DNA of 64,000 nt from Nitzschia sp. DOCU1 (taxonomy: Eukaryota > Bacillariophyta > Bacillariophyceae > Bacillariales > Bacillariaceae). Location of the stretch: NCBI GenBank assembly GCA_951394045.1, contig OX595998.1:372001-436000 (forward strand), given 5' to 3'. Both the position numbers and the translations under genes were made by a program. Below the pieces are notes generated by a model. It did no database searches, had not been told where the DNA came from, and was given only the letters and a program-made list of their open reading frames with translations. This document shows, piece by piece, positions 17,101-64,000 of the stretch. Within the stretch, counting starts at the first letter, position 1. Each line of letters starts with the position of its first letter.

Positions 17101-17411
17101 GCAACATCAAGAAGACGTCGAAGGGCGGCACTGTTGTTGAAGTACTGCCTGTTATGGAACGGAATCTCATCGTCATACCACTTGCATGTCAATGAGGACG
17201 ACAAGACGTCAATCTTCATCTTGTTCAGGAATGATCGACCAAGGATAAGGTCGTACTCGACATTGGGATTGTCAAATAGATAAACTTTCACTGTCTTGAT
17301 AGACCGAGTGTAGGAAAACTCGGGAAAGCGCACGTTGTGGAAGTAGACGTACTCAGTGGCTTGCAAGGCCCCAGAAGTAGTCGTGAACGTCATGGATTCG
17401 TCCTTGAACAC
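14163..17411 (-). CDS. Gypsy pol: protease end, reverse transcriptase, RNase H, integrase
   Basis: A 1082-codon frame without an ATG at its start; it opens with GTG at 17411 and overlaps the gag-protease frame by 22 bp in the -1 frame. In order: end of the aspartic protease (YDLILGRSFL), RT (FTKIDITGAYY, VPQGLTQSP, FIDD), RNase H (IETDASDYALGA, KEALG, IYTDHKNL), the HHCC integrase finger (WYHQVQGHSG, then CxC), and the integrase core with AVDLIGPW, CIFDAGNEF and NPQANAVCERMH supplying D, D and E. The RT motif is FIDD rather than YIDD. The 3' end lies 13 bp from the LTR, as in a complete element. Expression presumably needs a -1 ribosomal frameshift, or a single-base indel has split an originally continuous frame. 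Confidence 0.9.
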   Translation of the reverse strand: MFKDESMTFTTTSGALQATEYVYFHNVRFPEFSYTRSIKTVKVYLFDNPNVEYDLILGRSFLNKMKIDVLSSSLTCKWYDDEIPFHNRQYFNNSAALRRLLDVAPAPITRAESHLNEIQANKSTVADVREVADAQVHLTPEQREQLYQILIKYDTLFDGTQGYYPHRKFHIDLKPDAIPYHCARPYPVPDRHAKVFRDELKRQCETGVLEQVFESEWGMPMMAIPKKDGTIRTVDDFRELNKWVQRKVYPLPRIQDIFRRRQGYEYFTKIDITGAYYSYELDDESSWLCVLVTPFGKYRRKRVPQGLTQSPDWAQATIEEVLSDLLYECVEAFIDDVGIFNKTWDEHLQVIDRVLHRLQQNGYSVNPAKCEWGVKETDWLGHWLTPEGLKPWKKKIQGILQLDRPKTLRQLRGFIGMINFYRDFWERRAHILAPLTALTKVDPKAFRKAWNADCDKAFKQIKAVIAQEILLAYPDPNKPFEIETDASDYALGARIMQEGKTVALFSRKLTDAQRRYPASDKEALGITAVLEEYRPMLYGAPITIYTDHKNLSQSILKSQRLLHWRLLIEEFAPQLIYKPGIDNVVADALSRLPMGAKNPPWVIKNPLRVIENPLSGIGSPGLPAAPAHMPAHVPPSAHYAPPNEQDLPLETTDETPPDGNFSRLSLSGEKQEDEDLDSLLAECLLFYPQEVDGFPLNFPSIRDAQDADPACLALLEQDGYERQEFHGYELVCYRRANDNEWRIVIPEALEQPALTWYHQVQGHSGADRLYKSLRTFFWIAGLKQKARDHVDNCGCDQIKEGGMAYGHLPPRNDTTYPFEVVAVDLIGPWSIEVPYTGRITIEALTIVDVATTLSETIRIENKSAHHAAMLFENHWLARYPRPLECIFDAGNEFVGAGFQATLAIEGIAGRPITVKNPQANAVCERMHKTIEDTLRILCKREPPANVATALEHADSAIATASRAIRIAVHRTLGVSPGSLVFGRDMLLPIPLIRDFELIRERRQAVIDDNNRRANLRRRFKDYEVGDQVLIHTYNPTTLQERAVGPFTIEQVHVNGTVTIHRGNNVFERINIRRLRPYRGTPA

Positions 17412-18250
17412 TCGATACCATTGGGCAAGCTACCCTTCTTGGCCATTGGGTGACTTCCACCGTGATCAAACAAGGTCTTGTAGAAGTACTTGCCTTTCTT
17501 GTTGTTCACTTGTCCGACGACAGTCAACGTCGTAGGAACTAGATCAATGTCGACTTCTTCGAGTCGAGCAGCAGTCGACAGATTCGACTGATACTTCTTG
17601 CTCTTGCAACGAAGTTTGCTTGCTTCTTCAGGATCATAATACTCGGGGTCGAGCTCTTCCATGTGATTGAAGAACGATTCCTTGGCCTTTTCGTCTTCAT
17701 TGGCTTCCTCTTGCTCAAAGAAGTAGCTGCGGCCTTGAGTCAAGTTAGACTCGGCACCTTGAGGGTTGCTGGAGGCGTTCGAAGCAATTGCCGTCCTAGC
17801 ATTCCCATCAGTTGCATGGGCCTCACCTCGGCGTCCTTGATTGGCACCACGGCCTCCTCCTTGATTGCCGCCTTGGTTGTTGGCCTCGCCGTATCGATTG
17901 GCACGACACTGGCCCCAGGTATGATTGCCATGACCTGGGAGAGGGCATGGGTCATTGGCTTGAATGCGACGATAGCCTTGATTGTCGCCACCGCCATGGC
18001 CACCACCGCCATTGCGGTTTCCATTTCGATTGTTGTTGTTGTTGTTGTTGTGGCGTCCACCGCCATTGCCAAAGCGGTTGCGATTTCCACCTTGATTGCG
18101 ATTGCTTCTTCCACGGTTGCCAGATCGGCCACCGGAGCTGCGGTTGCCTCCGCTGTTGTTGCTGCTGGCACCATTGCCGCTGCTTCCACTTTGCTGTGGA
18201 GGGTTTCGAATCGCCTGCCGATCCATGTACTCGCGGATCTCAGCGATTGG
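17390..18250 (-). CDS. Gypsy gag C-terminal part with protease start
   Basis: Continues the gag frame interrupted by the DNA transposon; codons from 18250 leftwards read PIAEIREYMDRQ. A long Gly/Asn/Arg-rich region (GNRGRSNRNQGGNRNRFG and similar) is followed by CPLPGHGNHTWGQC, which spaces like a zinc knuckle (C-x5-H...H-x4-C). Then comes LFDHGGSHPMAKKGS, the aspartic protease active-site region, where the usual D-S/T-G is D-H-G. The frame stops at 17390 just after the pol frame opens. Confidence 0.8.
   Translation of the reverse strand, partial: PIAEIREYMDRQAIRNPPQQSGSSGNGASSNNSGGNRSSGGRSGNRGRSNRNQGGNRNRFGNGGGRHNNNNNNNRNGNRNGGGGHGGGDNQGYRRIQANDPCPLPGHGNHTWGQCRANRYGEANNQGGNQGGGRGANQGRRGEAHATDGNARTAIASNASSNPQGAESNLTQGRSYFFEQEEANEDEKAKESFFNHMEELDPEYYDPEEASKLRCKSKKYQSNLSTAARLEEVDIDLVPTTLTVVGQVNNKKGKYFYKTLFDHGGSHPMAKKGSLPNGIECSRTNP
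18243..18250. repeat. Target-site duplication GCGATTGG, left copy
   Basis: GCGATTGG directly before the DNA transposon. The same eight bases at 23353-23360 directly follow it, both within gag coding sequence, and the gag frame is continuous if the insertion and one copy are removed. Confidence 0.9.
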
Positions 18251-18275
18251 GGCAATTTTCTAGTACCTGTGGCCG
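18251..18275 (+). repeat. Terminal inverted repeat, left end
   Basis: 25 bp, inverted partner at 23328-23352 with five mismatches (positions 7, 12, 13, 15, 16). The same sequence recurs at 63489-63513. Confidence 0.9.
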
Positions 18276-18569
18276 AAAAAAAAAGGGGAGGGAAAAAAGG
18301 AAGTTTAAGAAGGGGAGCTCATGCCCAACGGCAAGCGCCCGTTGTAGAGCACCCGAGGTGCGCATTTGTAAATATTATTTCGTCCGTCCGTATCGTCGAC
18401 GTCGACGTCGGCATTCTTCTTGCAAATGCATTTCGAGTGTTGCTACAAAACAACAATCCAAATCCATCGACTACAAATCAACCTAAAGTCTCATCGACTA
18501 TAAATTAGCTACAGTGGGTTGGACTGCTACAATAGAGAAGGGACGATGACTCCGAATCAACAATCATCA

Positions 18570-21500
18570 TCACTCATTTGTATTGTCATCGCCGGGCTCT
18601 GGCTCCCATGGAATGTTGTCAATCCGCTTTGTTTGGTCAACTGGAAATCCTCTCTTCCTTTGATGCTCCGGTGTCCTGCATTCAAAGAACTTCCCTGGTT
18701 GCTTTTGCTTTGGCTTTGGATGGTAATCTGTCCAGTGGCAATCCAACTTACAATAGCCACACTCTCTGCATCGCTTTGGTAATCGTCTCTTCTTCATTTG
18801 AGGCTCAAGGAATGCATTGGCCTGGACATACTGAGCCGGTTCCACTGGCGTTTGGCCAGCAAAAGCTGCGACAACAATCCGCCTTGCTTCGGGGGCACTT
18901 TCCTCTTCCTCATCCTGGAAAACAGAAAATTGTACATCATCTTCCTCTCGTTCTTCTATTGGGGGAAGATCCATCATTGCTGGGAACGGATTATTCATTT
19001 CAACGGACGCTCGCTTCTGCCTCCTCTCGGCCGCATTTGAAGCCACCATGATTTTTGGAGCCTCCTCATCAAACGACACATCACTGCAACGATCCTGTCC
19101 ACGCAACGCTCGTCGAAGGCCCTTGTTCTGGTTCAATACTGGCAGCAACGTAGCTGCAACATTTCCAGCCTTCTTCATTTCTTGGTAAAAGTCCATCAAC
19201 AAGAAGGCGGTCTTGTAGGTCATGTCAGAGGCTGGTCTTCTTTCATCTTCCTCGTCCTTTACCCAGGCATTCCAGAAGCAAGTAAACTTTCCCCAACGGA
19301 TGGAAGTGAAGTTGTCGGCCTCATCAGTCAATCCATCAGTAGCAGATGTGGAGCCCCCCTGGAACCGAGTGTAGTGCTTTCGAAAAAACTCCTTTTCGCA
19401 GTCTGTGATGACTTTTCTGACACCTCGTTTTCGTCCCAATTTTCCGGCAACCCATGCGGCCGATGCAGTCAACTCTTGCATTCTTTCACTTGACTCCTCG
19501 TTGCTGGCATTATTGACAAGTGCATCCCAGGATCCATCTTTAAATGAATCCTCAATGCGACCAACAGCTTGGTCCAAGTCTTCTGTGCTTGTGTCGTACT
19601 CCCCAGCAATCAACCCGAAATCTTCTCCAGTCGAAGCAAAATATTTGGTACATTCGAATTTTGGATGGGGAGGCTCAACAAGCTCCTCCCAACCGCACCC
19701 AGCTTCAACCTCTTCTTCAATCTCCCATCCGTCATAGAAATGGGCATACCTTGACGGTAGCCCAAGAAGACGGATGTCGACGTCATGATTCCACCGGTGA
19801 ACAAATTCATAGAGTAATGCGACCACAAAGCCCGGGGAAATATTAAACCCACGTAATAATTGTCGTATTTTTTGGTGAAAGCCTTCTAATGCACTGGTTC
19901 CACGGAGGCATTTGAAAAGGGGTACACCAAGCGAGTCCGTTCCAATCTGTACGTAATACGATAGACCAGGAATATCGCTGAGGCAGCCCTTCCTTATGTG
20001 CCGCAGGGTAGACTTGTACAGATTCCACGCCTTTCGTCCAAACAACGGCTTGCCTGTCTTATTATCTTTCACATTTGCAAATAAGTTCACCACAGCGTTG
20101 AACTGTTTCTCAAGCTCCACTGGACCTGGGACTGTTCGCCGAACGCGCTTCCTGAAATAGTGCCATGGCAAACTGTTGATTTCATCGTCAGTCATGTTGC
20201 CCTTTTCCTTTAGAGCTGCTTTAAGGAACGATACATCCAAGTAGCTTGCGACAAAGAATGCATCTGACAACCTCGCCATGAACGAACCAAATGCACCATG
20301 TTTCTTGGACAATACCCGAGCAAATCGAATAAAGATATGCTCGATGTCCTGCTTGGTGTGGCCACCCTTGAAGTAGAAGTTGGTGGTGTATGGATCCTGG
20401 TGGTCCTCAGAAAAACCATGGTCGTCAAGGCGGGTGTGAGGTTCGTCATCCAAAGTATCATTTCCACCAGTGTCGTCCTCATCCTCCGACATTGATAGGT
20501 CATTTGGAGGGCTTGCCTCTGCTGTCATTGCTAGTTGTAGTGGCTCACTGCTCGCATCAGTCTCACCTCCCGTAGCCAGCACCGGGTCTGTAGCAACTTC
20601 TTTGCTCTTGGTAGAAAGAATTGGTTCAAAAACGCCCCCTTCTGGTTGGACTCGGGTGTGATTCAATAGCCATTTTACTTCAAGGGGTTCGTGGGCTGGA
20701 ATCGCAGCCTTTAATTCCTCAAGAGTTTTCCCTTGCATCTGTGTCGCCTTAGCAGCTGGACGCCGTATACATGTTATTTGAAACTTGGCGCACTTGTTAC
20801 TCTGTTGGTTGAAAAAGAGATGGCTGTCAGCAAGGCCAACGTAAGTCGCCTCTGCAACAACACTCGATTTATTTGGTGTGTATAGAAGTAACTTGTCCCC
20901 TTCCTTGAGGTTGTTTGCTCTTGGAGCGGTCGTCTCTGTAGGATCGACATATGGCATTGCTGTCATCTTCAGATAGCAGAGCATCTGGGAGTAAGAATCT
21001 AGTGCGGCGTACTCAATATGCTTGTCCGACAATGGTCCTGACCAATTCGAAATCCGGATGCTTTGATCCTTTTCAAGCTCAATGCCACCAAATAGAGCAC
21101 TAAAAATCTTGCCAAGGCTACCTGTCGCCGTTGGAAGAACGCCTCGATCCTTCGCCATGTGCTGCAGATTGACTTCGCCTTGCAGAGTGACGCCTATCTC
21201 CGCCAGTTTTGTCCGGTCTGCCGAGATTGAACATGCAACTTTCTTGATGTCGGGCGATTCAAGAAGCGTCACAAGTCCTTTTGGGAATGGCCGCTGAAAA
21301 ATGTATGTATCCAGTCCTTGTGTCGTGATTTGGATCGTGTCGGGGCCTTTCTTAGTCCTTGCCATTGCTACAGTCCATTCACTATCAAGTGAAACAACAG
21401 CCCATTCATTGCGCTGACATGATGCGATTATATCATTCGCAGTAGCATCTGCAACTTCGTTTGATGAAAACGTTGTCGGGCTTTGGTTCATAGTTAAATA

Positions 21501-22343
21501 CTGCACAGTCCTTGTGGTTGAATATTGCGCACTTGTTGTTGAATATTGTGTACTCGTCCCTGGATCGGGATCAAAAGAGTGCACCACGAACGAATCGAAG
21601 ATGGGGCTCTTCTCCTGATTGCTGCTGCCTTCATAAAACGACCGCTCCTGGCAGCAGCGATCGGTAGTGAAGATAATTGGCCCTTTAAATCCATGCAGCT
21701 TGTACCGACGGTTCAAGCCTCGCAGGGACCCTTCGACTTCATTGAGGGTAGTGCCGTTAACGAGCCTGAATAGCAAAATATGGCCATACTCATTCATCAC
21801 AGAGTACATGCCAACAAAACCCCGCTCGTTGTCGATCAGTACGACCTTGCCAATCTTGATAAAATGGTCACCACTCAGAAAGTTACCGCCATTCATTGTC
21901 ATTTTGTGACGGTAGTAGGGCACGTGCGATTCTATCTCTTCGAGCGTGACTCTCAGTAGATAGTTGAGCGATGGTAGAGTATACTCTGATCGTGGGTCAT
22001 CAAAAGGGAAAAATAACCGCTTCTCAATGATACGCTTCTTAGCCTTCATGAGCTCGCAGTATGATCGCCACTTCTTGGCGTCCATTGCGTGCGCTTGCTT
22101 GTATCGTTCACAGAGGGCATTGCGAAAGCCAAGAGCACTCATTCCGTGTGCTAGCTGTGACCGCATCTGTTCAATCAAGGTCCATCGAACCGCCCCTCTC
22201 GTTGTAGTTCGGCAGCCATGTTGCCTCCAAATACCCTGAACATGGTGGGGCTTGGGAAACCACGCCTGCATCATAACTATAGAACATAGAATTTTCTTCA
22301 CTTGCCTTCTCTCGTTGGATCTTACAGATGTACCTTCGGCCAA
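18570..22343 (-). pseudogene. Transposase, main part: DDE-like core with inserted DEDD 3'-5' exonuclease
   Basis: A 1257-codon frame opening with TTG, with no ATG where the protein logically begins; it continues the upstream 294-codon frame after a one-base shift. Counting from its first codon: a transposase-like part with GDHFIKIG (D159) and IIFTTDRC (D228); then at about 305-462 a 3'-5' exonuclease with VVSLDSEW (D320, E322), ISADRTKL (D376) and IEYAALDSY (Y445, D449), the DEDDy pattern of RNase D/WRN-type nucleases. A later transposase-like part follows with KQDIEHIFIRF, RKRVRRTVPGP, and CLRGTSALEGFHQ (E820). The C-terminus has a Cys/His cluster (RCRECGYCKLDCHWTDYH). The D/D/E assignment is inference. 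A frameshift separates it from its N-terminus, hence pseudogene in this copy. Confidence 0.78.
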
Positions 22344-23046
22344 TAAGCCCAGTTATACCATGCTCATCAAACACTCGTCGCACATATCCGCCCCAGCCAT
22401 TGTGGAGTACACATGACGTGTTGCCAGCATGGAATGGACAACAGGGCCTGTTATCCGGGTAGAACTCTGGCCATCGGCATTCAGGAGCCCAGAACATAAT
22501 GGGGCGGCATGCGAAATCACTGGGTGATAGGAGGGTACCAGGATCACGGTTGAGTGGTGCATTGTAGAAAAAGTGGTAGGGATCAGCAACTGGGTCGACC
22601 ATTAGCCCTCCAATTTCAGCAGGCCATCTCCCAACAAATTGGTGGGCACCATTCTCCTCAAACCTTACTCTATCTTTCAGAAAGATTTGGAGCTCAGTGT
22701 AGATCTTCAACGATGTTGGCCGGAATGTTCCCTCCAACATTCCTTGTTGGCTTGTTGCTGCTGCGAGGATGGATTCTTCTCTTATGCCTTCGTCCTCTTG
22801 TGTAGATTTTGCTCTTGCCGCTTTGTTTGCATTGCGAGTAATAACTGCTTTCTTTGCTCGCAGTACAAATTTAGGGTTCTTCTCCGTTGAATGCGCCTTC
22901 TTACATTGGGCTTTTTGAGCACTCATCAGTAGCTCCAAAGTGTGCTTCTCCCGTTGTTGTTTTTCGAGAAGGGCCACTCGTTCACGTCGAGCAATTTTCT
23001 CTTTCTCCAGATTTTCCGGTGTGTATGGATTATGGATCCACTTCAT
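22171..23046 (-). pseudogene. Transposase N-terminal part (DUF6729-like zinc domain)
   Basis: Starts at ATG 23046 (MKWIHNPYTPEN). A basic coiled-coil-like stretch (residues of about 15-90) is followed by a Cys/Trp-rich region with PIMFWAPECRWPEF, CCPFHAG, HNGWGGYVRRVFDE and RRYICKI. This order resembles the DUF6729 domain that I know in front of exonuclease-containing transposase-like proteins of fungi and algae; the match is from memory. The frame stops at 22171 after NYNERGGSMDLD, whereas the next frame reads RGAVRWTLIEQM over the same bases. Shifting by one base inside the run of four C (plus strand 22193-22196) joins the two parts. Confidence 0.7.
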
Positions 23047-23327
23047 TTTGTGCAAAGGCAGCGTTGAATCAATTCCAATTTGTTGGATTCATATTGCGAA
23101 ATGGGGGCCCAGTTTCGTCATTGGAAGTGGGCATGAAAATGATTCATCGTCATTTTGTCATTTTTGTGTTACTTCCGACGCAGTCGTGGGACGGTTCGGC
23201 GTGGAGGATGGCTTTCGCTCTAGTTTAATAAGCCCTTGCGATAACCACGATAACCATTTAGTTTATTTTTCGTCAGAGTGAGCGACGTTTTTAATAGGTT
23301 ATGTGCTCTATTTTGGCTTGCGATAAC

Positions 23328-23352
23328 CGGCCACAGCGATGAGAAGATTGCC
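23328..23352 (-). repeat. Terminal inverted repeat, right end
   Basis: Inverted partner of 18251-18275; 20 of 25 bases match. It borders GCGATTGG at 23353-23360. Confidence 0.9.
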
Positions 23353-23957
23353 GCGATTGGAGTAGTTGAGTAGGTCATATTCGCGTTTTCGAAATTGACT
23401 TGAAAGGTAGACGGCATGGCTTTTACGTAGACTCTAGCCAGTTCGTCGTCGTCAAAGCCACCATCATCTGGGGCATCAGCCAGTTGAGCCGCCATCCTTG
23501 ACGCTGCTCGAAGGCACAAAAGAAACTTGCCAGGCGTCATGCTCACTGGCTTCTTGATGGAACGTAGGTAGTCCATCTGATCAACATAGCGATAGCCTGC
23601 CAATAGCTCCGATTTGAAAGCTTGCAAGGCTTGATCAAAGTTGGCAACAGTTGGGTTCAAACCGTTGCTCACGAGTTCCCACACTGCCATGGGATATCCG
23701 TCCAAGTGGCTTGGGAACTTGGCGAAAAGCTTAGGTCCAGTCGTCCAGACCAAGGTTGATCGTGCTCTAGCAAAGAGCGAAAGGAACGTCAGGATCGCAA
23801 AAGGTGTTGCTTCATCGTTGAGACGAGGAACTCGAAGCTCAGTGGATTCCTCAACGCCATGGGCGTCTCTCTCGCTTCTGCGATGACGAACAAACTCGAT
23901 TTCCGACTCATCATAGTCTGGTTCGAGGGGGATAACATGGGCCTTGGTTGGCGCCAT
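23353..23957 (-). CDS. Gypsy gag N-terminal part
   Basis: The likely start is ATG 23957 (MAPTKAHVIPLEPDYDES). About 200 residues of capsid-like helical sequence (AFKSELLAGYRYVDQMDYL, TPGKFLLCLRAASRMAAQL) run to MTYSTTPIA, where the DNA transposon interrupts at 23352. In the current sequence the frame runs on into transposon sequence and stops at 23220. The partner segment is 17390-18250. Confidence 0.78.
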
Positions 23958-24057
23958 GGTCTTGAAGATAAGTCGTCTTGAAAGTTGTTTTGCAAGGGGT
24001 CGCCTATCGTTGCGATACACGGCTCGTTACGAAGTCTCACGTAGTTTCTGATCAGAG

Positions 24058-63488: not shown

Positions 63489-64000
63489 GGCAATTTTCTA
63501 GTACCTGTGGCCGAAAAAAAAAGGGGAGGGAAAAAAGGAAGTTTAAGAAGGGGAGCTCATGCCCAACGGCAAGCGCCCGTTGTAGAGCACCCGAGGTGCG
63601 CATTTGTAAATATTATTTCGTCCGTCCGTATCGTCGACGTCGACGTCGGCATTCTTCTTGCAAATGCATTTCGAGTGTTGCTACAAAACAACAATCCAAA
63701 TCCATCGACTACAAATCAACCTAAAGTCTCATCGACTATAAATTAGCTACAGTGGGTTGGACTGCTACAATAGAGAAGGGACGATGACTCCGAATCAACA
63801 ATCATCATCACTCATTTGTATTGTCATCGCCGGGCTCTGGCTCCCATGGAATGTTGTCAATCCGCTTTGTTTGGTCAACTGGAAATCCTCTCTTCCTTTG
63901 ATGCTCCGGTGTCCTGCATTCAAAGAACTTCCCTGGTTGCTTTTGCTTTGGCTTTGGATGGTAATCTGTCCAGTGGCAATCCAACTTACAATAGCCACAC
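63489..64000 (-). mobile_element. Second copy of the TIR DNA transposon, left end only
   Basis: The first 512 bp match 18251-18762 without a difference that I can find. The flank is GAAAGATC, the expected 8-bp target duplication to look for beyond the window. It includes the 25-bp terminal repeat and the 3' end of the transposase. Confidence 0.92.
63808..64000 (-). CDS. Transposase C-terminus, partial, runs off the window
   Basis: Matches 18570-18762 and ends in WEPEPGDDNTNE. The Cys/His cluster is partly included. Whether this copy has the frameshift seen in the first cannot be seen here. Confidence 0.85.
   Translation of the reverse strand, partial: CGYCKLDCHWTDYHPKPKQKQPGKFFECRTPEHQRKRGFPVDQTKRIDNIPWEPEPGDDNTNE

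Follow-up and report, generated by a model that had tools for sequence, protein, structure and literature searches.

How does a eukaryotic transposon multiply when its transposase carries an exonuclease inside the catalytic core, and what do the short spacers between its tandemly arranged relatives say about the route? The question is raised by a 5,102-bp element at positions 18251-23352 of a 64,000-nucleotide stretch of Nitzschia sp. DOCU1 (GenBank assembly GCA_951394045.1, contig OX595998.1, positions 372,001 to 436,000, forward strand; hereafter the window). The element ends in imperfect 25-bp terminal inverted repeats (TIRs; 20/25 identical) and lies between two copies of the 8-bp target site duplication GCGATTGG, as the initial annotation of this DNA had described. 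Cut-and-paste is the mode of movement generally ascribed to DDE transposons of eukaryotes. We propose that the window element is a Dada-like DDE transposon that most likely moves by copy-out/paste-in, like bacterial IS256. Head-to-tail copies of it and its relatives suggest multiplication through copied-out circles, as is known for insertion sequences of bacteria. The counts of ends, duplications and junctions given below come from a single genome of 52 Mb in 63 contigs.

Tandem junctions and target site duplications

The tandem 6-bp junctions, which the initial annotation did not mention, are the strongest evidence on mechanism. Several other families related to the window family are present in the genome, of which we studied L051 (C15, 1,539 aa), L052 (C3 and C10) and L053 (C15, 1,552 aa). 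Head-to-tail arrays were found in four related families and in shorter relatives with the same ends, and the spacer between neighbouring units is 6 bp at 31 of the 33 junctions. Most of these (27 junctions at 10 loci) have ends of the AGCTACCTACGT type, where every spacer is 6 bp under a search pattern that permitted -4 to 20. The window family contributes one junction, also of 6 bp, and L053-type ends contribute five at four loci (three of 6 bp, one of 7 and one of 2). The two exceptions to the 6-bp rule are C4:1343110 (7 bp), whose outer ends were not found in the fetched stretches, and C6:2825808 (2 bp), part of a tandem remnant with a truncated end (L056, G000:C6:2825300-2832000). Both were left out when spacers were compared with outer flanks, as was the C1:3871012 array, which we took as a segmental copy of C1:3843306.

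This comparison covers 12 arrays, namely those with at least one readable outer flank. In ten of them, removing the two bases adjoining the gene-3' type end from the 8-bp duplication of the array gives the spacer. The missing pair is on that side in all ten, and the opposite polarity occurs in no array. For nonautonomous arrays, the gene-3' type end was assigned by similarity to the ends of coding copies, and for GGCCAATG-type ends by elimination. When spacers were compared with the duplications of different arrays, 0 of 132 matched at that place, and 1 of 132 matched with any offset and strand allowed. At C15:1331057 and C4:3732189, the remaining two arrays, the 6-bp spacers bear no relation to the duplications of these arrays, and no donor locus for these spacers was found in the genome outside the arrays themselves.

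Outer flanks follow a different rule. Target sites were read at 27 two-ended copies (16 single insertions and 11 arrays; one-ended copies were left out), and 24 of them have an exact 8-bp duplication. The single insertions comprise four of the window family, one more of that family pieced together from segmental copies on C1, one L051-type, one L052-type and nine with TGTCCGG-type ends; 14 are exact, one matches at 7/8 positions and one rearranged locus (C16, three ends) shows no duplication. Among the arrays with both outer flanks read, ten are exact and one matches at 7/8. The 24 exact duplications all differ from each other, with an A+T content of 65% compared to 51% for the window. For the C1:3841 array, an empty site is present in another copy: TTGTCATATTTTTGTGTTAC contains the 8 bp once, while the filled site has TATTTTTG on each side. 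The initial annotation had looked to further copies to bear out its ends and its duplication, and other copies do have both.

Two side observations concern these sites. Both 7/8 duplications (G000:C10:1917661-1928196 and C17:77971-79263) differ at the penultimate base on the gene-3' side, with AG or TG against CG; the mismatch falls within the two bases missing from tandem junctions, which at n=2 may be chance. On C1, three stretches (G000:C1:3840185-3847243, C1:3867881-3878635 and C1:3368563-3370912) are apparent segmental copies of one region. Here, a deleted window-family element contains, nested within it, an array of a second Dada-like family, which is three units long in one copy, six in another and missing from the third; the number of units seems to have shifted since the segmental duplication.

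From the spacers and their polarity we infer the following route. The transposase would initially nick the TIR adjoining the gene 3' end, which acts as the donor. The freed 3'-OH would then attack the same strand 6 nt outside the TIR at the gene 5' end, within the 8-bp duplication. The attack would close a single strand into a circle, with a spacer of 6 nt, and leave a flank 3'-OH after base 2 of the duplication. Host replication primed at this 3'-OH would restore the donor and produce a double-stranded circle, which would be cut at both ends and inserted with a new 8-bp duplication. Arrays could originate in two ways: the polymerase may round the circular strand more than once, or the circle may recombine with the donor copy. 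In either case, the array would keep full 8-bp outer flanks, while its inner spacers would consist of 6 of those 8 bases. The exonuclease may work on the 3' ends left at the flank.

Bacterial IS256 and ISCth4 provide the closest model for such a process. They produce 8-bp duplications and TIR-TIR junctions with spacers of 6-8 bp and of 5, 6, 7 and 19 bp, and insertion from a junction is best with 6 bp (as described in PMC7780238). The elements studied here share with them the 8-bp duplication, a spacer of about 6 bp drawn from the donor flank in 10/12 arrays, and a putative RNase H-type core with a C/DxxH motif. Unlike IS256 and ISCth4, for which that account describes the use of either TIR, the donor end appears to be fixed here, with the gene-3' type end as the donor in 10/10 matching arrays. 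The protein also differs in its length of 1,492 aa, in the exonuclease inside its core and in having no Pfam match to bacterial transposases.

The 6-bp circles and arrays would also be expected from a cut-and-paste transposase with an off-set cut. In this scenario, double-stranded excision is exact at the gene-3' end but falls 6 bp outside the gene-5' end, and the ligated circle recombines with the remaining sister copy. It is in keeping with the fact that hAT and P transposases, which the literature places in the same C/DxxH group, are generally known to cut and paste. However, the scenario requires asymmetric double-strand cuts, yet insertion uses both exact ends, as the 8-bp duplication abuts both TIRs. 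Moreover, arrays, in which the donor is kept, are nearly as frequent as two-ended single insertions. With TGTCCGG-type ends, arrays occupy nine loci, of which one was counted as a segmental copy, versus ten two-ended single insertions, plus one-ended copies; at a frequency so close to that of single insertions, arrays are therefore not rare. We consider an off-set cut unlikely.

Kojima and Jurka read the duplication of Dada-U1 and Dada-tIA as 6 bp (PMC3706591). By analogy, the true duplication could be 6 bp here, with the two extra bases reflecting a target preference and the arrays resulting from repeated insertion at the same site. This is very improbable, since all eight positions match at 24 of the 27 sites, in unrelated target sequences and the empty site has the 8 bp once. 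Repeated insertion beside an existing end would furthermore add an outer GG/CC, which was not seen on inspection of the flanks of the ten matching arrays. It is just as hard to credit that the arrays arose without transposase, through slippage or general recombination of one target duplication with the other. Although repeats are often tandemly duplicated in eukaryotic genomes, this process predicts spacers of 8 bp instead of 6, and the lost bases fall on one side in the ten matching arrays.

The transposase and its exonuclease

In the window, the transposase gene is split into two frames. The sister copy, which begins at 63489 in the window, reads through this point as one open frame of 1,506 aa from stop to stop (1,492 aa from the first M), so that the two window frames represent one broken gene and an intron between them is ruled out. 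The layout of the protein is Dada-like: its RNase H-type core (D, D, DxxH, E) is split, a DEDDy exonuclease of the WRN type follows the second D and precedes DxxH, and there are a zinc region and, at the C-terminus, a zinc motif.

Searches for relatives initially returned 24 metagenome proteins and 40 in all after further rounds; in viral contigs, 22 pattern matches were obtained, none of which was confirmed. Conservation was assessed in an alignment of 31 rows, to which this genome contributes four frames and the 40 relatives 27. The other 13, including P0032, P0040 and P0022, are outside the alignment.

The catalytic residues proposed in the initial annotation, D159, D228 and E820 (D394, D463 and E1055 in the sister protein), are each kept in all 29 rows that have a letter at the position. 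To these we add an invariant DxxH motif, absent from the earlier list, which sits between the exonuclease and the E; its D901 and H904 are kept in 30/30 rows. The structural matches of the whole predicted model were filled by exonucleases, and the D-D half was therefore folded separately with AlphaFold. Its predicted fold resembles retroviral integrases and ISCth4, and we conclude that the D-D half looks like an RNase H-type fold, which the initial annotation had asked of a structure prediction. Foldseek returned no match below 1e-3 for this half, the best being Mu transposase at 0.018. Together, conservation and predicted structure support a DDE transposase whose second D and E are separated by a DEDDy exonuclease.

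No match to a transposase profile, those of hAT, KDZ-Zisupton, MULE and P included, was seen for the 31 rows among the 25 most frequent of the 31 matched Pfam families. Bacterial Mutator-type (IS256) profiles gave none for the first row of the alignment and none among the same 25 of 31 families, at E-values up to 10. NCBIfam likewise gave no Mutator-type transposase match for three proteins at E-values up to 1, where HMMER filters may hide very weak ones. Membership in hAT, KDZ, MULE, P or IS256 by sequence is thus rejected, as no profile match was seen.

The exonuclease is the only Pfam match of the window protein above cut-off (PF01612, residues 301-460 of the window frame, E 1.7e-7), which agrees closely with the 3'-5' exonuclease annotated at about 305-462. 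In the AlphaFold model, its structural match is the WRN exonuclease. PF01612 is matched by all 31 rows of the alignment, and the residues D555, E557, D611, Y680 and D684 are kept in 30, 31, 29, 31 and 31 of them (the exceptions being one N and two E), in relatives as low as 22% identity to the first row. Among the 40 relatives, none was found to be free of the exonuclease. The three for which PF01612 was not listed are an N-terminal fragment (P0032), a C-terminal fragment (P0040) and an internally deleted protein (P0022), whose deletion spans from the middle of the exonuclease to beyond the E. When the DxxH-E region was used by itself as a query, 28 matches were obtained, 27 of them listed with PF01612.

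This conservation suggests that the element probably needs the exonuclease, and it speaks to this need only; a role in transposition is a guess. The domain could instead be a passenger that takes no part in the reaction, as rotifer retroelements also carry DEDDy exonucleases without a proven role (PMC5408684), and only some Dada elements are reported to have one (PMC3706591). Against this stand the presence of PF01612 in all 31 rows, the near-complete retention of the five catalytic residues across such divergent rows and the incomplete state of the three relatives without a listed domain, and we regard a passenger as improbable. The element couples an exonuclease with the core of a transposase in a way that lends itself to in vitro tests.

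The initial annotation reported a DUF6729-like zinc domain. Pfam does not detect DUF6729 in the window protein, but PF20499 is significant in the relative L053 (E 1.9e-12), in P0024 (2.3e-17) and in P0031 and P0033, while P0021 scores just under the cut-off. Within this region, C241 is kept wherever it is present, as is C203 except in P0024. At position 206, most rows have H and five (L053, P0024, P0029, P0031 and P0033) have C. The N-terminal zinc finger described for Dada is of the CCCC type. No paper mentioning DUF6729 was found in the literature searched. At the other end of the protein, a loose C-x2-C ... H ... C pattern occurs in the last 220 residues of 32/40 relatives, as it does in the window, L051 and L052 families; it is absent from L053, its C6 and C10 relatives, and P0031.

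Relation to Dada and other transposons

The initial annotation described exonuclease-DUF6729 proteins as unassigned families. Such a protein is, however, known from transposons, as Kojima and Jurka, who in 2013 defined Dada by a DDE core with DxxH and by N- and C-terminal zinc motifs, described a DEDDy exonuclease between the second D and DxxH in the Laccaria and Ectocarpus Dada transposases and supposed that it processes 3' ends (PMC3706591). The exonuclease-bearing architecture is therefore not new. It is the published layout, with which our element shares the catalytic D, D, DxxH and E, the position of the exonuclease, a CCHC-like C-terminal zinc motif and a large single transposase, as described for Laccaria bicolor and Ectocarpus siliculosus. 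The spacing of the C-terminal motif differs from that of the published CCHC finger.

What is new are the mapped ends and junctions. In the 2013 account, the Dada elements with clearly definable termini all lie in small RNA genes, which bears out the mapped termini as the novel point of the initial annotation. Several features weigh against full membership in Dada, here compared by published descriptions. The elements studied here have 25-bp TIRs, whereas the Dada families of U6 and U1 genes are described without them, and clear 8-bp duplications, whereas 6-7 bp are given for the superfamily. They occupy many unrelated targets instead of small RNA genes, as judged from the 24 different duplications, although the flanks were not searched individually for RNA genes. 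Finally, they have no intron, unlike the reported Dada elements other than those of Perkinsus. Because the short duplications and the TIR-less insertion into small RNA genes are not seen, we call the window element Dada-like and not a member of Dada.

The published Dada elements pose puzzles of their own. In Dada-U1, as in the arrays described here, the flanks are of 8 bp and tandem copies stand 6 bp apart; the authors chose 6 bp as the duplication, with 8 not ruled out. Dada-tA is flanked by a 6-bp sequence missing from its target (both PMC3706591). In 2022, Kojima again gave the duplication as 6 or 7 bp and speculated that an old flank travels along, sometimes on one side only (PMC8869645). 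The copy-out model would explain why a duplication of 8 bp was read as 6 and why an old flank of 6 bp appears, and the published 6-bp Dada duplication may itself be a junction spacer. It thereby offers one explanation for three observations: 8-bp flanks around tandems spaced by 6 bp, a target whose sequence has given way to a 6-bp flank of older origin, and replacement on one side only. On this reading, a copy-out reaction of the bacterial type, asymmetric and preserving its donor, is recorded by sequence alone in a dozen arrays of four divergent families.

A broader picture can be drawn, to which we give even chances. Here, a replicating eukaryotic DDE transposon would form IS256-like figure-eight circles with a fixed donor end, re-copy itself by rolling circle from the 3'-OH in its own duplication into arrays in situ, and handle that 3' end with the exonuclease in its core. 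The whole Dada group would behave alike, and the published 6-bp duplications and carried flanks would be copy-out spacers. In the literature searched, which covered few subscription journals, we found no paper that reads 6-bp junctions derived from the target as a sign of copy-out in a DDE transposon of eukaryotes.

The nearest eukaryotic parallels seen are in Kolobok. KolobokP forms multimers and leaves excision footprints that were compared with IS3/IS256 copy-out, and KolobokD carries a DEDDh 3'-5' exonuclease (PMC9587614). As described there, Kolobok duplications are TTAA, in contrast to the 8 bp found here, and KolobokP multimers share a long terminal direct repeat, whereas the spacers here are target-derived. 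Unlike that of KolobokD, the exonuclease here is of the DEDDy type (YxxxD; Y680 and D684 in 31/31 rows) and lies inside the catalytic core. Zisupton/KDZ and hAT elements also make 8-bp target duplications (PMC12730594); their transposase profiles were not seen among the 25 most frequent of the Pfam families matched here.

Copies, coordinates and neighbourhood

The sister copy, which the initial annotation had noticed from its beginning at 63489, is C14:435489-440592. It lies 45 kb from the window copy at 99.96% identity, and has its own duplication GAAAGATC; the only difference between the two is one of length, by 2 nt at window position 22244. A genome-wide search with the window element also gave a third copy, C9:567473-572665 (91%), as well as deleted and partial copies. 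Nine genome copies of each end were found at up to three mismatches, with none for the left end reversed as a control and no control matches for the right. A scripted TIR scan around the frames recovered the known ends of L022 and L023 and nothing useful for L051, L052 and L053, whose ends were derived by copy-to-copy comparison.

Table 1. Positions in the window of the transposon's ends, gene and domains, and of the second copy
Feature	Position	Strand	Remarks
Target site duplication, left copy	18243..18250	.	GCGATTGG; same 8 bp at 23353-23360
Left TIR, adjoining the gene 3' end; putative donor end in copy-out	18251..18275	+	end sequence recurs in the genome
Transposase gene	18570..23046	-	split at ~22244 by a 2-nt deletion into frames 18570-22343 and 22171-23055
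C-terminal C-x2-C ... H ... C zinc-type motif	18678..18770	-	loose pattern, found in relatives too
Catalytic E (E820 = E1055)	19884..19886	-	29/29; on helix 948-961 of the model
DxxH motif (D901-H904 of sister protein)	20337..20348	-	30/30
DEDDy 3'-5' exonuclease domain, between D2 and DxxH	20964..21443	-	PF01612
Catalytic D2 (D228 = D463)	21660..21662	-	29/29; immediately follows a strand in the model
Catalytic D1 (D159 = D394 of sister protein)	21867..21869	-	29/29; on a strand of the predicted RNase H-type fold
DUF6729-like cysteine/histidine region, limits approximate	21999..22539	-	aligned region of relatives scores PF20499; C203, H206, C241 largely conserved
Right TIR, adjoining the gene 5' end; putative recipient end in copy-out	23328..23352	-	end sequence recurs in the genome
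Target site duplication, right copy	23353..23360	.	GCGATTGG
Second full copy, beginning	63489..64000	+	extends beyond the window end; own duplication GAAAGATC

At L023:302, about 830 bp ahead of the C9 copy, there is a further TIR of a related type (GGCAATTTTTTGGTAGTCCTGGCCG), and the same 5' flank precedes both ends. This suggests either a second related element or a local duplication at this place. In the window, the frames flanking the element (17390-18226 and 23220-24020, minus strand) resemble parts of an interrupted retroelement gag by eye, for which Pfam gave no support. At L054 (G000:C10:434500-440300), a Dada-like C-terminal frame adjoins a long frame that by eye is a Copia-type polymerase, and two Dada-like stretches of this kind are 10.8 kb apart.

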